Below, one piece after another: positions 4,329-14,832 of a stretch of DNA of 35,668 nucleotides (its first letter is position 1; each line of letters begins with the position of its first letter). This stretch comes from Deltaproteobacteria bacterium. GTDB lineage: Bacteria > Myxococcota_A > Polyangia > Polyangiales > Polyangiaceae. Under the pieces are notes generated by a model. The model was not told the origin of the DNA, ran no database searches, and worked only from the letters and a program-made list of their open reading frames with translations. The translations under genes were made by a program, and so were the position numbers. The stretch spans positions 1 through 35,668 of the forward strand of contig VGRJ01000040.1 in NCBI GenBank assembly GCA_016875405.1, in the 5' to 3' direction.

Positions 4329-7300
4329 CATCCTCGGCGGTGTCGGCGTGCGCGGTGTCGGCCCGCGCCCCCTCCGTCCGTGAAATCTCGGCGGTCTCCG
4401 ATGCGACGACGGCCCTGGATTCATCGCTCGGAGCGGCGCGACGCAAGAGCGAGGTCCCGCGAACGAGGCGCGGCAGCGTCGCTTCCGGGTGCGCGGCCGC
4501 GCTCCAGGCCGACACCCAGGCGTCCCACTGGATCGAGAGCTCGCGAAAGAAGACGCTCCGAGCGTCGAGCACGTGCAAGGGCTGCCCGCCGGTCGTACCC
4601 GTCACCTCGGGCCTCAGCGTGAGACCGCCGCGCTCGAGCCGGTACGCGACCTCGGTCTCGTAGCCCTCGCCCGGCCAGACGAGCAACACGCCGTCCGCGA
4701 TGTCGTAGGCGACACCGGCCCCGAGCTCGGCCTCGAGCTGCTCACGAACGAGGTCGACCTCGGCGCGCTGGTAGAGGCCGGCCAGCGCATTCTCGAACAA
4801 GCGCGCACCGTCGGCCGAAGCCTCCGTGAGCTCGCAGACGAAGCCTGGCTCGGCCATCGTCGCGACGATCATCGACGACTGCTCCTCGAAGCGGAGCTCG
4901 CATACCTCGCGACCGAGCGCGGGGCAGCGCAGACGAACCCGAATACGATTCGAGCTGAGCTCGACCTCCTCGACGAGAAGCTCGCCGTGCGTCCAGCGAG
5001 CCGCGCTCGAGAGCACCGCGACGAGCTCTCGCTCGACGAAGCGCCGTACCGCCTGCTCGACCTCGTGAAGCCCCTCGCGAAATGAGCCGAGCGAGGTCAC
5101 CCTGGCGCGCTCGAGCCGAGTGCCACGCATCACCGCGGCGTCGTCCTCGCGCTGAGCGGCGCGACGCAACCGCTCGTAGAGCTTCGGCAGCGTGCCCGAG
5201 TGCATGCCGACGACGAGAAGCCCGCGCATCGTCTCGCCGTGATGTCCGATCATCGCGGGGAGGAGCGCGCCGGGGCGCGTGGCCCGATACAGCTTGAAGT
5301 TCTCCTTCAGCTCCCAGGCGAGGAAGCCGAAGATGCTCGGTGAGAGGAACATCGTCATCCACGCGAGGAAGCCGCCGAGGATCACGCCGAGCGGCGCGAA
5401 GACCGGCGTCGCGAGGTCGAGGATGCGCGGCATGTAGGCGAGCATCAGTTTGTCGGCGACGACGACGACCGGGAAATGCTTGAGCGGATTGACGAACGGC
5501 TCGATGAGCAGCGTGACGTAGAACCGGATCACGTACGCGAAACCCGCCCAGACAAACCCCGCCGCACCCTTCGCGTAGAGCGATGCCTGCGACTGGCCTT
5601 GGCGGAACCGCAGCGCCTCGTCCACGCGATACATGGCACGATCCACGAGATCCATCGCCTTCTCGAAGAAGCGGCCGACCGAGCGCACGAGCCCGGGAAG
5701 CCACTGACGACTCACCACCTGGAAGCCTGGCGCGAGCTGATCGAAGAGCACGTCCTCGAGCCAGACCCCGACGCGAGAGTCGAGCGCAACGCTTGTCGCG
5801 AGGAAGAGCGCGAAGCCGAGGGCCGCGCCGAGCCACGGCTCTTCGATCCGCGTCGGAAGCAGGTACCATCCGAGGGTCGCCGCGAGCGCCGGGATGAGGC
5901 CGCGCCGGATCGCAAAACGAACCTGTGGCAGCGCGAACCACCGTCGAACGGTGGGCCGAGCGAACAGCATCCGCGGGATCGTGACGAGCAGGAACGAGAG
6001 CACGAGGCCGACGAGCTCGACGAGCTGCATCGCGGCGCGTCGGAAGAACGCCGAGTGAACGAGCCCGAACACCGCGAGCGAGGTGACCGCGAGCGACGCG
6101 GGCGTGACCGCCTCGACGTCGAGGTGCAAGAGGTGACCGAAGTGACCGAGCGCCTCGAGCACGATCGCCGCCGCGCCGATCGGTAGCGCGACGTAGAGGG
6201 TCACACGTCGACCGAGCTCGGTGCCGAACGGGACGCTCGACACCTTTTGGAACGCGCGTAGGTAGACCTCACTCGAGCGGTAGACGCCATCGAGCTCGTC
6301 ATCGAGGAGCGCGTCCGCGCAGAGCAGCGGGTCGCCGTCCCAGAACTCGCGCGCGTCGGCGAGGTCGGGCAGCTTCAGCTGGTTGCGCGAGAGCGCGTCG
6401 CGCAAGGCGCCAAACCCCAAGAATCCTTGGTCAAGCGTGACGTCGAGGAGCTCCTCGACGAGCTTCTCCCGCGCGAGCCGCTCAGGATCGGTCGAGGCGA
6501 CGAGGCCGACCCGCTCGAGGATCGCGTGGAGCTTCGAGCGCAGCGCGTCGCGGACATTTTCCTCGGCGTCGGCGAGCGCCGCGTCGAGGAGCCTCGCGAG
6601 CAGCTTGCGCTCGGCAGCCGGGACGCGAACGTGGCGGACGAGCTTCGCAGCCTCGCGGAGGCGCTGCGCAACGCGGAGCTCGCGCGTCGCAGGGAGGGCG
6701 CGGACGACCGGCCTCTTGCCTCGTGAGACGACGTAGCCCGCGACGTCGACGATGCTCTGCGGGCGCTCGTGCGCGAGGGCGGCGAGCTGAAGCGCGTAGA
6801 GCAGACGGGCCTCGACCGCGAAGCGCGTCGCCCGCTCCACCGCAGCCCTGTCACCGACGATCGCGAGGAGCGCCGTCCAGCTCGGTGCGGATCGACGGCG
6901 TGGGTGTGAGCCTGGTGGCGGCGCGAGGGCCGCGTTGAGGCGCGCGCCAAGGCTCGAGAGCGCCTCACGAGTCGACGCCTCGGCGCGGCGACGGAGCTCG
7001 GGCTCCTCGACCGTGGCGGCGTAGGCCGCTGCGAGCACCGCTCCGACGTCGTTTCCCTCGGCGCGCGCGCGGCGTGCCTTCTCGAGGAGCGAGACGACCT
7101 TCGACGGCGAGGCAGGACGCAGCGTCACGGCGTCGGCGAGCGCGAAGCTCGCGTGCGTCGAAGAGGAAGCGACCGTCGTATGCGAGACGGGGCCGAGCGC
7201 GGGCCGCGGGACCTCGGGCGGGCGCCCCTCGTCGAGCAGCCGGGCGACCTCGAGCTCCTCGGCGAACATCGCATCGAGGTCTTCGAAGCGAGCGATCCCC

Positions 7301-10715: not shown

Positions 10716-11837
10716 TCAGTTGCAGGCGTCTTCGAGCAGGGTCACCGGCTTCGCGACGTCGCCGAGGCCGACCTTGCGGAGCGTGAAGCCGATGCCGACG
10801 CTGATGGCGTTGCAGGTCTTCGTGGGATCCTGGGTCCCGTCGTCGAGGATGTCGGAGGCGCGACGGATCTGGTTCGCGAGCACCGAGTCAAAGGCGTCGC
10901 ACGCCGTCTGGCCGAGCACCCCCGCGACGACGCGCACGCTCTTCACAAACTCCTCGGTCTTCACGTAACCGCCGATCTGACCGAGCGCCCCACCCTCATG
11001 GGTCGGGGCGAGCTGCGCGCTCATGCGCGCCTGGTAGATCGTGATCGGGACGGTGATCCCCGCGACGTTCAGCGCCAAGACGAAGTCTCGCGTGCCGTTC
11101 GACTCCCAGCGGTTGTTCACGATCTTCGAGTCGACAAAAAGCGTCTTGGCCGACGCGGGATCGGCGGGATTCGTCAGCGTCTCGTGAAGCAGCGGCCAGC
11201 AATCCCCGCCGTTCCAAGCCGGCGCCTTTCCGAGCGGCGCGCCGCCGAACACGCGGGTCGTCAGCTTGTCGACGTTTGCCTCGCTGCCGAGCCCCTCGAA
11301 GGCAAAGAGCTGCGTGAACTGCCCCTTCGAGATCGCGTCGTTCGCCTGCTGATCAAGCGGAGGAACCAGCGCGTTGACGGCGGGGAGCACATTCCGTCCA
11401 AACGAGTTGTCGCGACCCATCGGTCCGTCGCCGAAGGCCGAGGTCGCCCCGCCCATCACCGGTAGGCAGTGCTTCGACGTGTCGGCGCCGGTGGTCTGCC
11501 CATCGAGGTCGAAGCCGAACTCCTTCCATGCATCGCTCGCCTTCGTCCCGTCGAAGCCGTTGGCCCCGAGGAAGATCTCGTCGATCGCGAGGACCGCGCC
11601 GTCGTAGGGCTCGCAGCTCGGCGCGCTGCCACCGGCTCCGCCCCCGCCGCCGCCGGCCCCGCCGACGCCCGACGAGCTTGCGACGTCGCTCGCTCCGCCG
11701 CTGCCGCCCGAGCCGCTGGCGCTCACCGAGACCGAGCCGCTGCCCTCGGTCGATGCGGAGCAGCCCTGGTCGTAAATCGCGAGGGCGAGGACGGTAAGCG
11801 TGGTGATCGCCGCACCGACGGAGTGACGTCGCAGCAT
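10716..11837 (-). CDS. Lipoprotein with Ser/Gly linker, unknown function
   Basis: Predicted 373-residue exported protein. ATG 11837 is chosen because GAGGAA lies just upstream and the protein then begins [20 protein letters not shown], a signal sequence ending in YDQGCS. The residues before the Cys are not an ideal lipobox, so lipid attachment is likely but not certain. A Ser/Gly/Ala-rich tether of about 50 residues follows ([20 protein letters not shown] and similar). The folded part starts near [17 protein letters not shown] and has acidic, beta-rich character with a few cysteines, including one in the last three residues. No family recognised. Its stop abuts the CDF relic, so the deletion that truncated the transporter may have brought this gene to its present place. 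Confidence 0.78.
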
Positions 11838-11859
11838 GGGTTCCTCGAAGCGAGCGCGA

Positions 11860-11880
11860 CGCCGGTGTCCCTCACCGGCG
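11860..11880 (-). promoter_or_regulatory. Hairpin in the putative leader of the lipoprotein gene
   Basis: CGCCGGTG (11860-11867) pairs perfectly with CACCGGCG (11873-11880) around a five-base loop, 22 bases upstream of the ATG at 11837. It would form in the 5' leader if transcription starts at the AT-rich tract further upstream, and could affect translation or mRNA stability. Confidence 0.35.
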
Positions 11881-11916
11881 ACGGCCTCGGTGCCGGAGTA
11901 CCACAGACGAGGAGAC

Positions 11917-11927
11917 AAAATAAAGTA
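11917..11927 (-). promoter_or_regulatory. AT-rich tract, possible -10 region
   Basis: On the minus strand this reads TACTTTATTTT, the only AT-rich run in the gap between the lipoprotein gene and the small Lys/Ala gene. It contains -10-like hexamers (TACTTT, TATTTT). No clear -35 is visible. Confidence 0.3.
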
Positions 11928-12017
11928 CGCGGCCGGATGCAGGCTCGCCTCTCTCACCACCTCGCGGTGGCGGGAGCCGAGGTCACGACCCGAGCCGCGT
12001 TTCGAAGCCGAGAAGGC

Positions 12018-12131
12018 TCAGGCCTTCTTGGCGGCCTTCTTCGCAGGGGCCTTCTTGGCGGCCTTCTTCGCAGGGGCCTTCTTGGCGGCCTTCTTCGCAG
12101 GGGCCTTCTTCGCGGTCTTCTTCGCTGCCAT
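12018..12131 (-). CDS. 37-residue Lys/Ala/Pro-repeat peptide, histone H1-tail-like
   Basis: A very small gene with strong signals. ATG 12131 is preceded seven bases upstream by GGGAGGA, and the frame ends in TGA at 12018-12020. The product begins MAAKKTAKKAPAKKAAKKAP and consists only of Met, Ala, Lys, Thr and Pro, built from a nine-residue unit (KKAAKKAPA) repeated three times. Such AKKAPAKKA repeats resemble the tail of histone H1 and of bacterial H1-like proteins, which bind DNA through charge. A DNA- or RNA-binding role in the nucleoid is therefore inferred. Here no globular domain is attached; the peptide is the whole protein. A sigma-54-like promoter lies upstream. The ribosome-binding site and clean start/stop argue against a chance frame, but expression is not shown. 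Confidence 0.72.
   Translation of the reverse strand: MAAKKTAKKAPAKKAAKKAPAKKAAKKAPAKKAAKKA
12021..12101. repeat. Three perfect 27-bp tandem repeats
   Basis: The 27-base unit occurs three times without a mismatch (12021-12047, 12048-12074, 12075-12101), followed by a partial fourth unit. Each unit codes for nine residues of the Lys/Ala peptide on the minus strand. Identical codons in every copy point to recent expansion or conversion, so copy number may vary between strains. Confidence 0.9.
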
Positions 12132-12138
12132 TGGAAAA

Positions 12139-12145
12139 TCCTCCC
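12139..12145 (-). promoter_or_regulatory. Ribosome-binding site of the 37-codon gene
   Basis: GGGAGGA on the minus strand, seven bases before the ATG at 12131; a near-perfect Shine-Dalgarno sequence and the main reason to accept the tiny gene. Confidence 0.7.
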
Positions 12146-12198
12146 TCGCGGAATCGCGAGTCGTGAGCGCCACTACGGCGCGTTTGCGCGACCGCCTT

Positions 12199-12215
12199 TA
12201 CAAGGCCCGTGCCAA
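12199..12215 (-). promoter_or_regulatory. Sigma-54-like promoter element
   Basis: The minus strand reads TTGGCACGGGCCTTGTA. It matches the -24/-12 consensus TGGCAC-N5-TTGC with the correct spacing, except that the conserved C of the -12 GC is T. Transcription would start about 12 bases downstream and give a leader of roughly 55 bases before the Lys/Ala peptide gene. Myxobacteria use sigma-54 widely. The -12 mismatch keeps confidence moderate. Confidence 0.35.
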
Positions 12216-12495
12216 CTTCCTTCGCGTCGAACCTCGACGCGCCCTTCGAGCCCTTCCCGCGACAGCGGCGCGCGACGCCGATCGCACGCATCGCGCTTGT
12301 GTGCGCGCGCGATCCGTCTTCACTCGACGCATCGTGCGAGTTGTCGACAAGCGGCGATGGCGCACGACCTGCGACGCGCGTCGCGCATCACGTCGACACG
12401 CGACGGCGCAGAACGCGCGCACCCAAGGGTGCAAGCGCTGCACACCTCACGAGAGAGGGCACGTCGGTTGCAGCACGGTCGTCGTGACGAGCGAG

Positions 12496-13383
12496 ATGCG
12501 AAGCCATGGCGAGAGCACGACACGACGACGCGGCAGCGAGCTGTCACTTCGCGTGCGGCACCTCATGACGACGAAGGTCACGACCTTCGCGCCCGACGAC
12601 GATCTCGCGCTCGCGCTCGCGCTCCAGATGATGCTGTGGAGCTCGGTGCGACATCTCCCTGTCGTCGAGGACTCGAAGCTCGTCGGCCTCGTCACCGATC
12701 ACGGTCTGCTTCCGATGCGTCGCGACCCGCTCGTCGAGGGTCACCTACGTCAACGCGTGCGAGAGGTGATGCATCGACCGGTGAAGACCATTCACCCCGA
12801 CGAAGACGCGCGCGTCGCGGCCGCGCTGATGGCGACCGTACATATCCACTGCTTGCCGGTCGTGCGAGGAGACGAGCTCGTCGGCATCGTCACGAGCTCC
12901 GACCTGCTCGCCGGGAACGGCCGCCCGCTCCTCGGGAGCGAGCGCGTGCCGAGCGTCACCGAGGTGATGACGCGCTCGCCGGTCCGGTTTCGCGCCGACG
13001 ATCGGTTGTTCGAGGTGGTGCTGCGCATGATGCGCGAGGGTGTCCGCCACGTCCCCATCGTCGACGTCGACGAGCGCGTCGTCGGGATCGTCAGCGATCA
13101 GGACGTGCGGGTCGTGCTGGGCGATCCGCTCCACGCGCTCTCACACAGCGAAGAGCTCGACCTCGACGAGCTGACGGCGAGTCACGCGATGACCCCACGC
13201 CCCGTCCTCGTGCGCGCCGCGGCCTCGCTCGGAGAGCTCGCTCGGCTGCTGCTCGACGAAGAGATCGGGGCAGCGCCGGTCATGGATGGGGAACGGCGCC
13301 TCGTCGGCATGGTGTCGTACGTCGACCTCCTCCGCTTCGTCTTCGCCGGGAGATGGCCGCTCGTCGGACCCTCGCCACGGTGA
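12496..13383 (+). CDS. Four-CBS-domain protein
   Basis: A protein of about 295 residues made almost wholly of four CBS modules. Each has the pattern of a VxxVMxxxxxxxxPD start and a VGxVxxxDLL end: LMTTKVTTFAPDDDLALAL with LVGLVTDHGLL; VMHRPVKTIHPDEDARVAAA with LVGIVTSSDLL; VMTRSPVRFRADDRLFEVVL with VVGIVSDQDVR; and AMTPRPVLVRAAASLGELAR with LVGMVSYVDLL. Paired CBS domains bind adenine nucleotides and act as energy or ligand sensors. With no catalytic domain attached, this is probably a stand-alone regulator of an unknown partner. Start ATG 12496 is tentative: GTG 12484 and ATG 12565 are in frame, but the latter would cut into the first module. The stop overlaps the start region of the phosphatidyltransferase gene, so the two are likely co-translated. 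Confidence 0.88.
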   Translation: MRSHGESTTRRRGSELSLRVRHLMTTKVTTFAPDDDLALALALQMMLWSSVRHLPVVEDSKLVGLVTDHGLLPMRRDPLVEGHLRQRVREVMHRPVKTIHPDEDARVAAALMATVHIHCLPVVRGDELVGIVTSSDLLAGNGRPLLGSERVPSVTEVMTRSPVRFRADDRLFEVVLRMMREGVRHVPIVDVDERVVGIVSDQDVRVVLGDPLHALSHSEELDLDELTASHAMTPRPVLVRAAASLGELARLLLDEEIGAAPVMDGERRLVGMVSYVDLLRFVFAGRWPLVGPSPR

Positions 13384-13978
13384 GCGCGCGCGCGACCCTC
13401 GATCAACCGGGACGCACCCACGTCCGCGACCCGTGGCTCGTCCCCTCGCTGGTCACCCTGTGCCGCGTGCCGCTCGCGCTGTTCTTCGCCTGCTCGCTGT
13501 CCACGCCACCCCTCGCGCCCGCCATTCTCGCGACCACCGCGGCGACCGAGATCCTCGACGGACAGCTCGCTCGTCACCTGGACCTCGAGACCGAGGCCGG
13601 CGCGTTGCTCGACCCCGTCGTCGACAAGGTCTTCGCCGCCGTGGCCATGGCCGCGCTCGTCGTGAGCGGGCTCTTGCCGCTTGGGCTCGCGTGGCGGCTC
13701 CGCACGCGCGAGCTCGGAGAGCTCTTGCTCGTCGGGTTCTGGGTCACGCAGCGCGGCCGAAGAGCATGGCGACGTGCCCCCCGCGACCGAACGCGCTCGG
13801 CAAGGCAGCGACCGTCCTGCAGTCCTCGGCGATCGTCGCAGCGCTCTACGCGCACCCCGCGGTCGCTTGGCTGTTGTGGGCGACCGCGATCGGAGGAATG
13901 CTCCTGGCCATCGGCGACGGCGCGACCACACTCGCGGCGTACCGCGCGAGGAGCACGGCAGCATGGCGCGGAGCATGA
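13353..13978 (+). pseudogene. CDP-alcohol phosphatidyltransferase, split by a one-base frameshift
   Basis: Membrane enzyme family that transfers a phosphatidyl group from CDP-diacylglycerol to an alcohol (PgsA-like). The first part has the complete catalytic signature DGQLARHLDLETEAGALLDP then VVD, i.e. DGxxARx8GxxxDxxxD, between hydrophobic helices. After GFWVTQRGRRAWRRAP the frame is lost, and the family continues one base out of register as PRPNALGKAATVLQSSAIVA and WLLWATAIGGMLLAIGDGAT. Adding one C to the C6 run at 13777-13782 restores a continuous protein (RRAPPRPNALGK). A real frameshift or a homopolymer sequencing error both fit. The start is ATG 13353 or GTG 13380; the latter overlaps the CBS stop as GTGA. 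The 3' end overlaps yicC by 16 bases. Confidence 0.82.
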
Positions 13979-14832
13979 CGGGGTATGGGGCGGGCTCGGC
14001 GCGCCTCGCGGGGGGAACGCTCTCGGTCGAGGTCCGGTCGGTGAACCACCGGCACATCGACCTGCGCCTCGACTTGCCGAAGGAGCTCGCCTCGATCGCG
14101 TACGAGATCGAGCCCGGCCTACGCGCACGCCTCGCGCGAGGTCGTTACGATGTGACCGCGAGGCTCGACGGTGCGGCGACCCCGCCCTTGCTCGACAGGG
14201 CCCGCGCGCGCGCCGCGTATCAAGAGCTCGCCGCGCTGCGAGATGAGCTCGCCCCAGGGACGGCGCTCTCGGTGGCCGCGCTCGTGAACCTGCCCGAGCT
14301 GTTCCGCGCGACGCCGGAGTGGACCCGCGACGACCTCGTGAAGAGCTTCGAGGACGCGGCGGAGGAAGCGCTCCGAGGCCTCGCCGCGATGCGCGGCGAA
14401 GAGGGCCGACACGTCACCGATGACGTCCGTGCGCGCCTCGCGGAGGCCCGGATGCAGCGGGCAAGGATCGCCGAGGAGGTCCCGCTCACCGTCGAACGCG
14501 AGCGCCGTCGCCTGAGCGAGCGCGTCGCCCGACTCGTCGAGCCCGGGGCGTCGGTGGAGCCGGGTCGCCTCGAGCTCGAGGTCGTCCTCTTCGCGGACAG
14601 GGCCGATGTGTCCGAGGAGCTCGCGCGCCTCGCGAGTCACTTCGAGCAGGCGGAGAGGCTCCTCGCCGAGGACGGCGCGGTCGGAAAGAAGCTCGACTTT
14701 CTGCTTCAAGAGATGGTGCGCGAAGCAAACACCATCGGCTCGAAGAGCCAGAGCGCTCCGATCGCGCATGCCGTAGTCGAGCTGAAGACCGCGATCGAGC
14801 GGATGCGCGAGCAGGCGCAGAACCTCGAGTGA
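13963..14832 (+). CDS. yicC: YicC-family endoribonuclease
   Basis: A 289-residue cytoplasmic protein of the YicC/YloC family, members of which cleave RNA and affect stress and small-RNA turnover. The N terminus has MARSMTGYGAGS and VEVRSVNHRHIDLRLDLP, and the C-terminal DUF1732-type part has DFLLQEMVREANTIGSKS and VVELKTAIERMREQAQNLE, all family hallmarks. The length is typical. GAGGAG lies nine bases before ATG 13963. The start overlaps the end of the phosphatidyltransferase gene by 16 bases, so the CBS-PgsA-like-YicC run reads as one translationally coupled unit. The gene converges on the SirB1-type gene with only 24 bases between stops. Confidence 0.95.
   Translation: MARSMTGYGAGSARLAGGTLSVEVRSVNHRHIDLRLDLPKELASIAYEIEPGLRARLARGRYDVTARLDGAATPPLLDRARARAAYQELAALRDELAPGTALSVAALVNLPELFRATPEWTRDDLVKSFEDAAEEALRGLAAMRGEEGRHVTDDVRARLAEARMQRARIAEEVPLTVERERRRLSERVARLVEPGASVEPGRLELEVVLFADRADVSEELARLASHFEQAERLLAEDGAVGKKLDFLLQEMVREANTIGSKSQSAPIAHAVVELKTAIERMREQAQNLE

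Follow-up and report, generated by a model that had tools for sequence, protein, structure and literature searches.

A conserved gene for a histone H1 tail-like peptide in a genus of Polyangiaceae, and apparent frameshifting in its paralogue

Results

A tail-only gene on the minus strand

The DNA analysed here, a stretch of 35,668 nucleotides that we call the window, carries a 37-codon open reading frame (ORF) on its minus strand at positions 12018–12131, which encodes MAAKKTAKKAPAKKAAKKAPAKKAAKKAPAKKAAKKA and ends with the stop codon TGA. Translation bears out what a sequence-only reading of the same DNA had described, namely a product of 37 codons limited to Met, Ala, Lys, Thr and Pro, with a nine-residue unit in three exact copies. 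The coordinates of that reading were also correct, while the strand, which it did not give, is the minus strand. The peptide consists of 16 Lys, 16 Ala, 3 Pro, 1 Thr and 1 Met, with 0 acidic residues, and its KK doublets start at residues 4, 8, 13, 17, 22, 26, 31 and 35. The gene contains a 27-bp tandem repeat (12021–12125, minus strand; 3.9 copies, 97% matches), in which a first, degenerate copy (MAAKKTAKK) stands before three exact copies of APAKKAAKK. A Shine-Dalgarno sequence, GGGAGGA, lies at 12139–12145 of the minus strand with a 7-nt spacer to the ATG, as had been claimed (seven bases ahead of the start).

Downstream of the small gene is a co-directional signal-peptide/lipoprotein-like gene without a Pfam family (10716–11837, minus strand), and upstream is a yicC-like endoribonuclease gene (13963–14832, plus strand); both were used as synteny markers. 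The neighbourhood also includes msrA and a CBS-domain protein. On the plus strand, 12018–12131 translates as SGLLGGLLRR..., and two open frames (11469–14246 and 11836–13383) span the site. Coding on this strand was set aside as the explanation, because the selection pattern, the ribosome-binding site and the flanking elements fit the minus frame. The second of these frames (515 aa, 11836–13383) joins the CBS-domain protein, whose probable start is at 12496, to the frame antisense to the small gene; over-extension of this kind by an automatic caller could mask the small gene.

The usual view of bacterial H1-like proteins is of long repeats or of tails that extend a folded domain. The peptide fits the descriptive class of bacterial H1-tail-like proteins, with Lys/Ala/Pro repeats, a tail without acidic residues and a repeat number that varies between relatives. 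It had no match to the Pfam HC2/Hc2-like family PF07382 (gathering score 40 bits), against which a 45-aa orthologue scored 20.4 bits. Scores of 9.1 bits for the peptide against NF038053, and of 22.5 and 12.1 bits for the orthologue in genome G001, lie below the NCBIfam cut-offs of 80 (NF038053, histone H1-like DNA-binding protein) and 135 bits (NF038052, Hc2). The winged-helix globular domain of linker histone H1 is absent, all 37 residues being low-complexity M/A/K/T/P. Since the peptide falls short of the curated models and has no globular domain, it is not filed under the Hc2 or H1-like families; if the function proposed below is correct, it would act as their tails do. A search of solved structures with the peptide returned a chance-level match only, and a search for a phage origin returned no match, although the low-complexity filter could hide one.

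Conservation and selection within the genus

Orthologues of the small gene are present in 4 of 5 genomes of the window's genus (Polyangiaceae, Myxococcota), the window's own included (G000; 5.0 Mb in 218 contigs), with lengths of 37, 45, 53 and 32 aa. Members of this genus include the freshwater metagenome-assembled genomes Polyangiaceae bacterium RH-23may17-336, Polyangiaceae bacterium ZH-3nov15-113 and Myxococcales bacterium Baikal-deep-G134. A whole-genome DNA search gave two same-genus species as its best matches, and the fourth species (G002) was detected via a promoter-plus-start pattern. In G003, an assembly that is 85% complete, neither the small gene nor yicC was found.

The orthologues share the ATG and the TGA stop, and their ribosome-binding region stays purine-rich (AGAGGA in G001 and G004; GGAGG in G002, the most divergent), whereas the repeat number varies. 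Their differences in length are multiples of three, with 0 in-frame stops or frameshifts in any copy, and aligned codons gave pS values of 0.21–0.67 and pN values of 0.04–0.15. A chance low-complexity ORF is ruled out, because the frame is conserved in four species with pS far above pN. On this comparative evidence, ORF 12131–12018 is a genuine small protein gene.

In G001 and G004, the small gene is flanked by the lipoprotein-like gene and yicC, and the neighbours share 47–77% amino-acid identity. The sequence-only reading had named syntenic copies with variable repeat number, together with conservation of the ATG, stop and ribosome-binding site in relatives, as telling for the gene; both are found and favour it. 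From the small gene to yicC, G001 and G004 lack both the CBS-domain gene and the gene that follows it in the window. We note this pair (12496–13978, plus strand) as a lineage-specific insertion or loss.

A sigma-54-like promoter element

Upstream of the leader, no invariant block is longer than an element common to all four species, AGTTGGCACG-N4-TTG-(T/A)A, located 83–85 nt upstream of the ATG (TGGCACG to ATG); sequence farther upstream is poorly conserved. In the window the element reads TTGGCACG-GGCC-TTGTA (12199–12215, minus strand) and matches the sigma-54 consensus given for M. xanthus, TGGCACG-N4-TTGC(T/A) (PMC9765219), at 11 of 12 positions. When combined with the KAP start, it was found in 4 of 108 family genomes, all in the window genus, against 0 for the backward control, and among 379 genomes of the phylum the combination did not occur outside that genus. 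The window genome encodes RpoN (E 4e-63) and has a canonical sigma-54 element ahead of an NtrC-type activator open frame, the activator being recognised by its AAA+ motifs GESGTGKE and GAFTGA rather than by a family scan. Many myxobacterial sigma-54 genes serve starvation or development. We infer that the small gene is transcribed by sigma-54 RNA polymerase, which would make its expression conditional.

A serious alternative, though less likely than not, is that the element is not a sigma-54 promoter and that the gene is expressed, perhaps constitutively, from an unrecognised promoter. The -12 C of the consensus is missing in 4 of 4 species, with T or A in its place, and strict sigma-54 motifs across the window genome were not enriched over the backward control. 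However, the near-complete match has the correct spacing, no sigma-70-like site was found in the region upstream of the small gene, and the nla6 promoter of M. xanthus, functional and mutationally characterised, likewise lacks the -12 C (TGGTGCG-N4-GTGTT; PMC9765219). This alternative concerns regulation only and is compatible with the function proposed below for the peptide.

Leader hairpins and a terminator-like element

Two leader hairpins are present in all four species. Hairpin 1 (12167–12181, minus strand; GCGCC-GTAGT-GGCGC) has a stem that is invariant and a loop that varies, and hairpin 2 (12145–12160, minus strand; CTCGCG-ATTC-CGCGAG), which abuts the ribosome-binding site, is the same in G001 and G004 and longer in G002. 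Both hairpins have modest z-scores (-1.6 to -2.6), and neither stem shows compensatory change. On the 3′ side of the stop, three species have a long hairpin with six compensatory pairs (z -4.0, -6.2 and -5.8) and, after it, ACTTTATTTTGT without variation; the window's copy, with a folding energy of -48 kcal/mol and a z of -4.0, occupies 11915–12000 of the minus strand. A strict terminator scan (5 T in 8 after a short loop) made no call at the small gene, and the hairpin is therefore labelled terminator-like. Together, the promoter-like element, the leader hairpins and the terminator-like element suggest a monocistronic mRNA of roughly 260–280 nt.

The conservation of the leader hairpins and the strength of the 3′ structure would also suit a structured or dual-function small RNA for which the peptide is secondary. 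We consider this very unlikely: coding selection is clear, length varies by multiples of three, the 3′ structure resembles a terminator, and an Rfam search at the locus matched no family.

A second locus and the Polyangiaceae H1-tail family

The window genome has a second H1-tail locus at ~43.8–44.0 kb of contig C1, where a paralogous gene (C1:43831–43974; locus L041, ATG at 6962, minus strand) starts MAAKKTAKKA... and runs into a slippery sequence followed by a stop. Its promoter region, TTGAC-18-TATACG within TGGCA(A/C)TATACGTCNTGCAACA, recurs in 56 of 108 family genomes (≤2 mismatches), and in nearly all retrieved loci an H1-tail ORF lies just downstream. Across the 52 loci that were read, family proteins are mostly 37–136 aa long, and the longer ones end in an acidic cap (SDESE, DDEE or LPPSFGVSGDEAE). 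The zero-frame product is ≤60 aa in 17 of these loci, 13 of them outside the window genus; therefore, tail-only peptides are common in Polyangiaceae. The sequence-only reading was right that an H1-like tail is here the whole protein, but such short tail-only proteins are not confined to this locus, the second locus often encoding 37–60 aa. The second locus is the older, ancestral member of the family. Descent of the small gene from the paralogue cannot be proven, because Lys/Ala/Pro tails converge easily.

Several further features of the family were observed. Upstream of H1-tail ORFs (for example, L110–L139), a 22-bp promoter-region motif that reaches past the -10 box, TGGCAATATACGTCGTGCAACA, is nearly invariant across Polyangiaceae genera, and its conserved part, TCGTGCAACA, may be a regulator site. 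A strong conserved terminator-like hairpin, AGCGAGAC(A/G)CA...TG(C/T)GTCTCGCT, follows the paralogue in L041, L042, L046 and L047. At L157 (G125:C503), the H1-tail ORF extends to 299 aa, unlike in close relatives, through a frameshift, recoding or an assembly error. Across the family, response regulators, topoisomerase-like proteins and others also carry fused KAP tails (L016, L022, L025, L037 and L003; in other genomes and on the window genome's own C2).

The small gene is shorter than most family members, and its same-genome paralogue is almost identical to it at the N-terminus and in the C-terminal residues, as would be expected if the locus were a remnant, that is, a truncated, decaying and functionless duplicate of a longer H1-like gene. 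Four species have preserved the gene, with pS exceeding pN by a wide margin and an intact frame in every copy, and it has a promoter-like element, leader hairpins and a terminator-like element of its own that are conserved as well. These findings have already largely refuted the remnant reading, which we regard as the least credible of those considered.

Apparent frameshifting in the paralogue

At the paralogue loci of four species (L041, L046, L047 and L042), a conserved slippery A7/A9 run is followed at once by a stop: the gene reads GCC GCA AAA AAA GCC TGA in three species and GCC GCA AAA AAA AAC TGA in the fourth, with A_AAA_AAA in the correct phase. The -1 frame continues as a K/A/P-rich tail for 70–106 more residues, giving -1 products of 113–150 aa that end in VDDESE, VDDDSE or MDDEAE in three species; the product of the window genome ends in PSTNA. 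A stem (AGCGCGA/TCGCGCT) starts 5 nt downstream of the slippery run in three species. In the window-genome paralogue, AAA accounts for 2 of 18 Lys codons, and both are within the slippery site. An independent case occurs in another genus (G086), where an H1-tail gene (L132, G086:C423, ATG at ~1570) reads AGT AAA AAA AAG TAA, with the dnaX heptamer A_AAA_AAG right before the stop; a -1 shift would extend its product from 74 aa to 166 aa, ending in the family acidic cap PPNFGPYGDESE. A scan of the genome collection with the slippery pattern of the genus found no other H1-like gene.

The paralogue thus combines a conserved in-frame slippery heptamer with an overlapping -1 ORF for a conserved product, as expected of programmed -1 frameshifting, and this apparent recoding would yield a short and a long form. 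Sequencing error is unlikely, because the pattern is found in four assemblies from different lakes. Transcriptional slippage on the A7–A9 run, instead of ribosomal frameshifting, is a possible source of the same products.

Recoding of the small gene itself was ruled out, as its end has no slippery run and its other frames have no lysine-rich continuation. At their C-terminal ends, the small gene (GCCGCCAAGAAGGCCTGA) and the paralogue (GCCGCAAAAAAAGCCTGA) have the same residues, without the slippery run in the small gene. For this reason, the small gene resembles a dedicated, non-slippery short form of the paralogue.

Discussion

Taking conservation, selection and flanking elements together, we think it probable that the small gene is a genuine one whose product is a nucleic-acid-binding, DNA-compacting and conditionally expressed peptide; for the 37-aa peptide, binding to nucleic acid is the best inference. 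H1-type tails are disordered polycations. The peptide is likewise expected to be disordered and equivalent to a piece of the C-terminal tail of histone H1, in which KK doublets every 4–5 residues would bind the phosphates of nucleic acids. Such binding would neutralise charge and compact DNA locally when sigma-54 transcription is on, for example during starvation or development, and the peptide would either act alongside the longer H1-like protein of the paralogous gene or compete with it. A tail of 32–53 residues as the complete gene product makes the role of a bare H1 tail in the cell directly testable.

In the strongest rival reading, the peptide acts chiefly not on the chromosome but on RNA, ribosomes or polyphosphate, either as a counter-ion or by organising granules. 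A polycation of 37 residues lacks any element that would confer specificity, and expression of the stress type (sigma-54) would also fit a role with polyphosphate. In Pseudomonas aeruginosa, the H1-like protein AlgP is associated with polyphosphate granules and positions them through its KPAA tail (PMC9239181). However, the neighbouring genes give no pointer to polyphosphate, and yicC, an RNase-family gene, lies on the opposite strand. We judge this rival unlikely, and favour DNA as the partner.

Tail length is evolutionarily labile among relatives and, in one genus, is apparently set by translational recoding. It is conceivable, at somewhat less than an even chance, that Polyangiaceae tune the length of the H1-like tail as a regulatory variable, with a recoded ancestral gene and, added in one freshwater genus, a second, sigma-54-controlled gene for the short form alone. 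The ancestral gene would then give rise to two forms: normal termination would produce the short peptide, which is all tail, and programmed -1 frameshifting the long one with its acidic cap. If true, this would be a bacterial linker-histone-like isoform system based on recoding. A literature search, which was not exhaustive, found no report of recoding in histone-like genes, and an equally incomplete search found none on such genes in Myxococcota.

Among known systems, chlamydial Hc2 (HctB, PF07382) and Bordetella BpH1 likewise consist of short Lys/Ala-rich repeats whose number varies between strains or species; they also lack the eukaryotic globular domain and bind DNA (PMC2848022). In contrast, Hc2 proteins are 165–237 aa long, whereas the orthologues described here have 32–53 aa, fall below the Pfam and NCBIfam cut-offs and carry a sigma-54-like element. 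AlgP and PhaF of Pseudomonas share the KPAA/KKAA-type tail, and peptides of KPAA repeats bind DNA (PMC9239181), but in those proteins the tail is joined to a different domain at the N-terminus, while in the window it is the whole protein. The C-terminal domain of eukaryotic linker histone H1 has the same Lys/Ala/Pro composition and frequent lysine pairs; the window peptide differs from H1 in having no winged-helix domain, and there is no evidence of common descent. The paralogue, in turn, resembles bacterial dnaX, in which -1 frameshifting likewise involves an in-frame A_AAA_AAA or A_AAA_AAG, a downstream stem-loop and two products sharing an N-terminus (PMC5009743). The outcome would be the opposite, as the shift in E. 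coli dnaX leads to the short form, whereas in the paralogue, with a stop right after the slippery site, it is the long form that needs the shift.
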